This document shows, in pieces, positions 837 through 23,457 of a DNA stretch of 34,907 nt. This DNA is from Bradyrhizobium sp. (GTDB lineage: Bacteria > Pseudomonadota > Alphaproteobacteria > Rhizobiales > Xanthobacteraceae). The stretch spans positions 1 through 34,907 of the forward strand of contig JAGXAF010000009.1 of NCBI GenBank assembly GCA_018971675.1. Reading direction: 5' to 3'. The position numbers were made by a program, and so were the translations under genes. Positions within the stretch are counted from its first letter, which is position 1. Each line of letters starts with the position of its first letter. Under the pieces are notes generated by a model. The model was not told the origin of the DNA. It saw only the letters and a program-made list of their open reading frames with translations, and did not search any database.

Positions 837-860
837 CGATATATCAGTGCAGATATAGCG
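837..860. promoter_or_regulatory. candidate molybdenum box (ModE-type binding site)
   Basis: The sequence CGATATATC-AGTGCA-GATATAGCG is an inverted repeat with nine-base arms and one mismatch. It follows the CGnTATAT-spacer-ATATAnCG pattern of ModE/Mop-type Mo-boxes known from E. coli and Rhodobacter. It lies about 160 bases upstream of the DUF2478 gene, a family I know to occur beside molybdenum genes. That pairing makes molybdate-responsive control plausible. The match is seen directly; binding and the direction of control are inferred. Confidence 0.55.
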
Positions 861-8925: not shown

Positions 8926-9110
8926 GCCTTTTCCGTTCCGATGGAATCGGAACGCGACTCTGGATTCTTGTTTTGACGCGTTTTCCTTACGCGAACCGGT
9001 ATCCACTTCGCTCGAAAACGCTCTGGAATTCTTGTTTTGGCGCGTTTTCTTCACGCGAACCGGTATCCACCCACGGATCAAGTCCGGGGCATGCCTCGCT
9101 CGAAAACGCT
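8926..9110. repeat. dispersed palindromic repeat, copy 1 (with internal duplication)
   Basis: It begins with a perfect hairpin CGTTCCGAT-GGA-ATCGGAACG (8934-8954). The core 'TTGTTTTGACGCGTTTTC...CGCGAACCGGTATCCAC...CGCTCGAAAACGCTC' then occurs twice in tandem, at about 8963-9025 and 9026-9110. The second unit includes an extra 'CCACGGATCAAGTCCGGGGCATG' insert. The same element recurs at 23334-23457. I associate it with Bradyrhizobium genomes from memory. The remaining bases to 9224 hold nothing I recognise. Confidence 0.85.
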
Positions 9111-23333: not shown

Positions 23334-23457
23334 AGCCTTTCCGTTTCGATGGAATCGGAACGGGGCCCTGGATTGTTGTTTTGACGTGTTTTCTTCACGC
23401 GAACCGGTATCCACCCACGGATCAAGTCCGGGGGCATGCTTCGCTCGAAAACGCTCT
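23334..23457. repeat. dispersed palindromic repeat, copy 2
   Basis: It starts with the hairpin CCGTTTCGAT-GGA-ATCGGAACGG (one mismatch). A single copy of the core 'TTGTTTTGACGTGTTTTCTTCACGCGAACCGGTATCCACCCACGGATCAAGTCCGG...CGCTCGAAAACGCTCT' follows. It matches the second unit of copy 1 at 8926-9110. It follows the cyclase gene by 19 bases, and its right edge supplies the stop codon of the minus-strand gene at 23456. Confidence 0.85.

Follow-up and report, generated by a model that had tools for sequence, protein, structure and literature searches.

An exact, arm-conserved Mo-box precedes a stand-alone DUF2478 gene in Bradyrhizobium, in a protein family genomically coupled to molybdate uptake

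The window, i.e. the whole stretch of 34,907 nucleotides of Bradyrhizobium sp. DNA that was analysed, carries two genes of interest near its left end. The first (53-706, + strand) encodes a glutathione S-transferase (GST_N, 1.4e-12) and forms the upstream boundary of the region. The second (1019-1549, + strand), the presumed target of the Mo-box described here, encodes a DUF2478 protein of 176 amino acids, whose match to PF10649 (E=1.3e-38) extends over positions 1-159 and reaches 132.5 bits as compared to a curated cut-off of 22.3. A ribosome-binding site, AAGGAGG (1006-1012, + strand), read by eye 6 nt before the ATG, supports the DUF2478 start at 1019. In between the end of the GST gene (706) and this start, both genes being on the + strand, lies an inverted repeat with the sequence CGATATATCAGTGCAGATATAGCG (837-860), i.e. 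CGATATATC-AGTGCA-GATATAGCG, located 158 bp from the ATG. The first-pass annotation had placed this repeat at the same coordinates, with the same sequence, in the leader of a DUF2478 gene, and both points hold. The repeat finder extends the palindrome to 836-861, with a left arm ACGATATATC (836-845, + strand) and a right arm GATATAGCGT (852-861, + strand) in which 9 of 10 pairs are complementary, separated by the 6-nt spacer AGTGCA (846-851, + strand), read from the sequence.

The neighbouring genes that were tested encode the glutathione S-transferase, MFS, HlyD and TetR proteins and an M29 peptidase. By tblastn, the window contains no ModA, ModB or ModE, and the only ModC-like products are two ABC ATPases with ~30% identity to ModC, at ~10.8-11.4 kb and ~25.9-26.5 kb, in agreement with the earlier statement that no molybdenum gene adjoins the site. 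Covariance models of the Rfam families, including the Moco riboswitch, find no match in the leader (600-1200) up to E=1, and no convincing sigma-70 promoter is found there. A short ORF of 47 codons (879-1022) overlaps the DUF2478 start; it is not counted as a gene, since on reading the alignment the sister orthologue does not keep this frame intact. To note, a second inverted repeat of the leader (965-990, GGCTTCCCGTC-ATCG-GACAGGAAGCC) is not retained in that orthologue either.

The site at 837-860 (no strand assigned) matches all 14 fixed positions of the palindromic ModE-type core CGNTATAT-N8-ATATANCG. It is the sole exact core match found by a pattern scan of its own genome (3.45 Mb), while a first-order Markov model of the window predicts 7e-6 exact matches by chance per window and 7e-4 per 3.45 Mb genome; the own-genome background is given by these pattern counts together with the Markov model. 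The palindrome alone is unremarkable and was rejected as evidence, as the window holds 29 inverted repeats of the same quality; the rarity is in the sequence. A scan of the own genome allowing 3 mismatches was uninformative (47 sites, as compared to 39 for the reversed control pattern). The published consensus of Escherichia coli ModE is ATCGNTATATA-N6-TATATANCGAT (PMC545781), of which the pattern above forms the core. The window site shares with it the palindromic CGNTATAT...ATATANCG arms at equal spacing, and a 13/14 version of the motif lies before modABC in a relative (L106). Conversely, the inner pair is C/G in the window instead of A/T, the outer AT/AT is kept at 1 of 4 positions, and the likely regulators here are HTH-only.

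The AlphaFold2 model of the DUF2478 protein has a mean pLDDT of 88.9 and a pTM of 0.86. Its best match among PDB folds is the human THEP1-type NTPase 2i3b (probability 1.00, TM 0.59, E 2.4e-3), followed by the corrinoid adenosyltransferase CobA, and no fold match reaches E<0.001. Searching the solved structures by sequence returned nothing credible, and the viral fold library returned generic P-loop proteins only. The likeness to THEP1 extends to a weak sequence match with NTPase_1 (PF03266), which stays below threshold (19.6 bits against a cut-off of 23.9, E 8.6e-4). In contrast with THEP1, a Walker A motif GxxxxGK[ST] is absent after strand 1, with no lysine in that loop, and DUF2478 has invariant features of its own, namely Cys79, Asp82 and an FG-x-x-E region. 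The residues invariant in 28 sequences are G34, G39, C79, D82, F108, G109, E112, G117 and W164. Judging from the model, the protein resembles a THEP1-type NTPase devoid of Walker A, and may be described as NTPase-like.

Independently of the box, the DUF2478 family is linked to molybdenum, being genomically coupled to molybdate uptake and to ModE. Within the window's genus, many genomes have DUF2478 directly after modC, the gene of the molybdate ABC transporter ATPase (TIGR02142), and at 20 loci, representing 16 distinct genomes by handle (L016-L026, L224-L236 and others), the frame runs continuously from ModC into DUF2478. In three of these genomes the frame is of the type ABC-TOBE-DUF2478 and in 13 of the type ABC-DUF2478, without TOBE. 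Representative frames reach 317.7 and 430.6 bits, as compared to the ModC cut-off of 285, with PF10649 at the C-terminus; the junction holds an internal ATG, and the product may be one chain or two. About a dozen other genomes encode an HTH-only ModE homologue ~75-115 bp past DUF2478, and in the betaproteobacterium Dechloromonas, DUF2478 occurs with a full-length ModE, a TOBE-only protein and a FeMo-co family protein. These ties (modC frame, ModE or Mo-box) are found on both main branches of the DUF2478 tree. About half of the 104 DUF2478 leaders gathered display no such link, many of them judged on no more than 1.5 kb of flank. The window gene differs from the modC-associated members in standing alone: its own modABC genes lie on another contig (C69), and DUF2478 is not beside them. 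The earlier proposal that the DUF2478 gene here would help to assign the family is strengthened by modC adjacency and continuous frames as well as by ModE adjacency. In the literature searched, DUF2478 appears only in a table entry on archaeal plasmids and PF10649 not at all; a link between DUF2478 and molybdenum was not found there, which is no proof of its being unpublished.

The nearest orthologue of the window gene, 90% identical, belongs to the sister genome L182 (JAGXAJ010000014.1, MAG REEB74; also L210/L258), where the same GST gene lies upstream of DUF2478. The leader of L182 has diverged, with insertions, yet it carries CGATATATACATAGTAATATAGCG. Between the two sites the arms are identical at 16 of 16 positions (8 of 8 core bases in each arm), whereas the spacer between the core arms is identical at only 1 of 8, and the dyad symmetry is intact in both. 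Conserved arms around a replaced spacer are the mark of selection acting on a dyad that binds protein. Orthologues from other genera and families, at 55-66% identity (L183-L205, L064-L074, L183 being from Afipia), have no such Mo-box. The leader alignment advocated by the first-pass annotation gives a divided answer: the box is kept in the 90% orthologue but is missing at 55-66% identity. This makes the box a trait of the window lineage within its clade, in which the window and L182 form a supported pair of their own among 29 rows, the remaining rows being nearly all boxless. Presence in distant orthologues is not what defines an operator, since regulons turn over.

This distribution bears on the best surviving alternative, namely that the Mo-box is functional but was recruited recently by this lineage, the core role of the protein not being specific to molybdenum (a general nucleotide or metal-stress function, for example) and molybdenum control being incidental. 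Within the clade of 29, only the window and its sister have the box, and the other members stand alone, nearly all of them without a box or mod genes nearby, as this explanation would have it. Against it speak the links seen elsewhere in the family, with a shared modC frame, ModE or Mo-boxes occurring on either main branch of the tree, and we consider recent recruitment improbable.

Beyond the clade, the exact motif was searched in 250 genomes of the family, yielding 91 sites as compared to 3 for the reversed control (summed forward column). The free positions of the pattern are non-random, G occurring at position 3 in 2% and at position 9 in 4% of the half-sites, and the window site conforms to this. 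A DUF2478 coding region starts 75-218 bp downstream of an exact box at 9 of the 75 distinct sites examined (8 of 74 without the window site), where ~0.05 such placements would be expected by our arithmetic even at 5 DUF2478 genes per 5 Mb genome. Among distinct DUF2478 leaders, a box of 13/14 or better is present in 10 of 104, and in none once the dinucleotides are shuffled; this sample depends on the searches by which the leaders were collected. In L106 (G323), modA, modB and modC all score above their curated cut-offs behind a 13/14 box, and the DUF2478 gene that follows modABC has an exact box of its own. Sites of 12/14 also lie inside or near a modABC-DUF2478 stretch in L251 and L252; most modABC-DUF2478 operons of the window's genus have no box of at least 12/14. 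Could the repeat then be the operator of another regulator, a mere look-alike of the Mo-box? Palindromic operators are common, repeats of such size abound in the window, as noted above, and no ModE gene adjoins the site; the exact motif, on the other hand, is very rare by chance and far exceeds its reversed control, and a 13/14 box precedes modABC in L106, which leaves this explanation very unlikely. Least credible of all is a chance palindrome or a decaying relic without function, compatible with a long leader, in which 158 bp separate box and ATG, and with its lack of a convincing sigma-70 promoter, but disfavoured by a sister site that keeps all 16 arm positions and its symmetry while 7 of 8 spacer bases have changed.

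On computational grounds, the repeat ahead of DUF2478 is a genuine Mo-box with conserved arms, and it almost certainly serves the molybdenum regulator as a docking site. That the repeat fits the Mo-box pattern, as was first read by inspection, is borne out by its 14/14 core positions, its uniqueness in the genome, the arms kept in the sister species, the excess over the reversed control and its recurrence before DUF2478 in other genera.

The own genome encodes two ModE homologues of 118-127 amino acids, which possess the HTH only, without TOBE, and score 91.1 and 77.5 bits, as compared to a curated cut-off of 98.5. The contigs that carry them, C148 and C312, also carry Mo-box-like sites. A second DUF2478 gene of this genome has a 13/14 box and shares its contig with an HTH-only ModE homologue at a distance of ~2 kb. 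A Mop protein was not found in the genome, which is 83% complete. A pattern scan of the own genome, akin to the Mo-box matrix scan that had been proposed, singles out the window site as the only exact match, and the own modABC promoter has no box. HTH-only regulators have a precedent in the single-domain ModE of Desulfovibrio, whose way of sensing molybdate is unexplained (PMC545781). The homologues of the own genome resemble it in being HTH-only; its DNA sites, CGGTCACG-N14-CGTGACCG (PMC545781), are in contrast unrelated to the window box. On contig C312 of the own genome (L052:192-1199), a ChrA-type chromate transporter comes after an HTH-only ModE homologue, and a 12/14 Mo-box-like site with a perfect dyad is located at 576-599.

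Taken together, it is likely that the repeat is the operator of a ModE-type regulator, that DUF2478 belongs to the molybdenum regulon and that its product takes part in cytosolic molybdate handling. As far as computation goes, this supports the earlier suggestion of a stand-alone DUF2478 member of the Mo regulon, the window gene being alone and preceded by an exact box. A ModE-type regulator with a LysR-like winged helix would bind the inverted repeat as its operator. When molybdate is plentiful, the regulator would sit on the box and hold the DUF2478 gene down; the gene is probably expressed under molybdenum scarcity. The direction of control is suggested by the company of the other exact boxes. 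Among the genes behind them are those for TonB-plug receptors, aldehyde dehydrogenases and an aldo/keto reductase, as well as a NifH-family gene. A regulon for molybdenum starvation would be expected to contain uptake systems and enzymes that work without molybdenum, from which we infer repression by the loaded regulator. The DUF2478 product would reside in the cytosol, have a THEP1-like NTPase fold from which Walker A has been lost and act just behind the importer ATPase ModC, where it may hold, hand on or gauge incoming molybdate. The invariant Cys79/Asp82 pair together with the (K)FG(K)xE region (107-112) is the candidate site for this.

A bolder and rather doubtful reading sees DUF2478 as a molybdate-sensing or -carrying domain that had so far escaped notice; it would replace TOBE on ModC in the 13 genomes of the genus with TOBE-less frames and serve as a separate sensor for HTH-only ModE, regulators that have no molybdate-binding domain of their own. 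Three independent lines, i.e. the Mo-box leaders, the modC adjacency with its continuous frames and the ModE adjacency, provide DUF2478 with a testable role in molybdenum homeostasis. The TOBE-less ModC-DUF2478 frames, and the joint occurrence of DUF2478 and HTH-only ModE, turn the way molybdate is sensed into a concrete experimental question.

Several further observations concern palindromes and boxes elsewhere. A dispersed palindrome, CCGTTCCGATNNAATCGGAACG, is present twice in the window (8933-8955 and 23341-23363). In the own genome its pattern is hit 77 times forward and 73 times in reverse, which are overlapping counts of the same sites, against 0 for the control, and one copy lies directly past modC on contig C69. 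A Mo-box is found between the divergent type II secretion genes gspE and gspD, exact at L167:2504-2527 and with one mismatch on contig C126 of the own genome (L051:13542-13565); a further near-match on C126 precedes a ShlB/FhaC-type transporter. The exact boxes before NAD-type aldehyde dehydrogenases and the aldo/keto reductase (L128, L134, L146, L151, L144) suggest that these enzymes are molybdenum-free substitutes for molybdenum aldehyde oxidases. The TonB-plug proteins preceded by exact boxes (L115, L120, L123, L155, L161) are outer-membrane receptors for which molybdenum or molybdophore uptake is a possible function. Finally, in several genera, a protein of ~126 amino acids without a Pfam match (motif LTTCxV...LxF) is encoded divergently from DUF2478 across the Mo-box, for instance at L038:2141-2518 and L106:5638-6075, and possibly represents a further molybdenum gene family.
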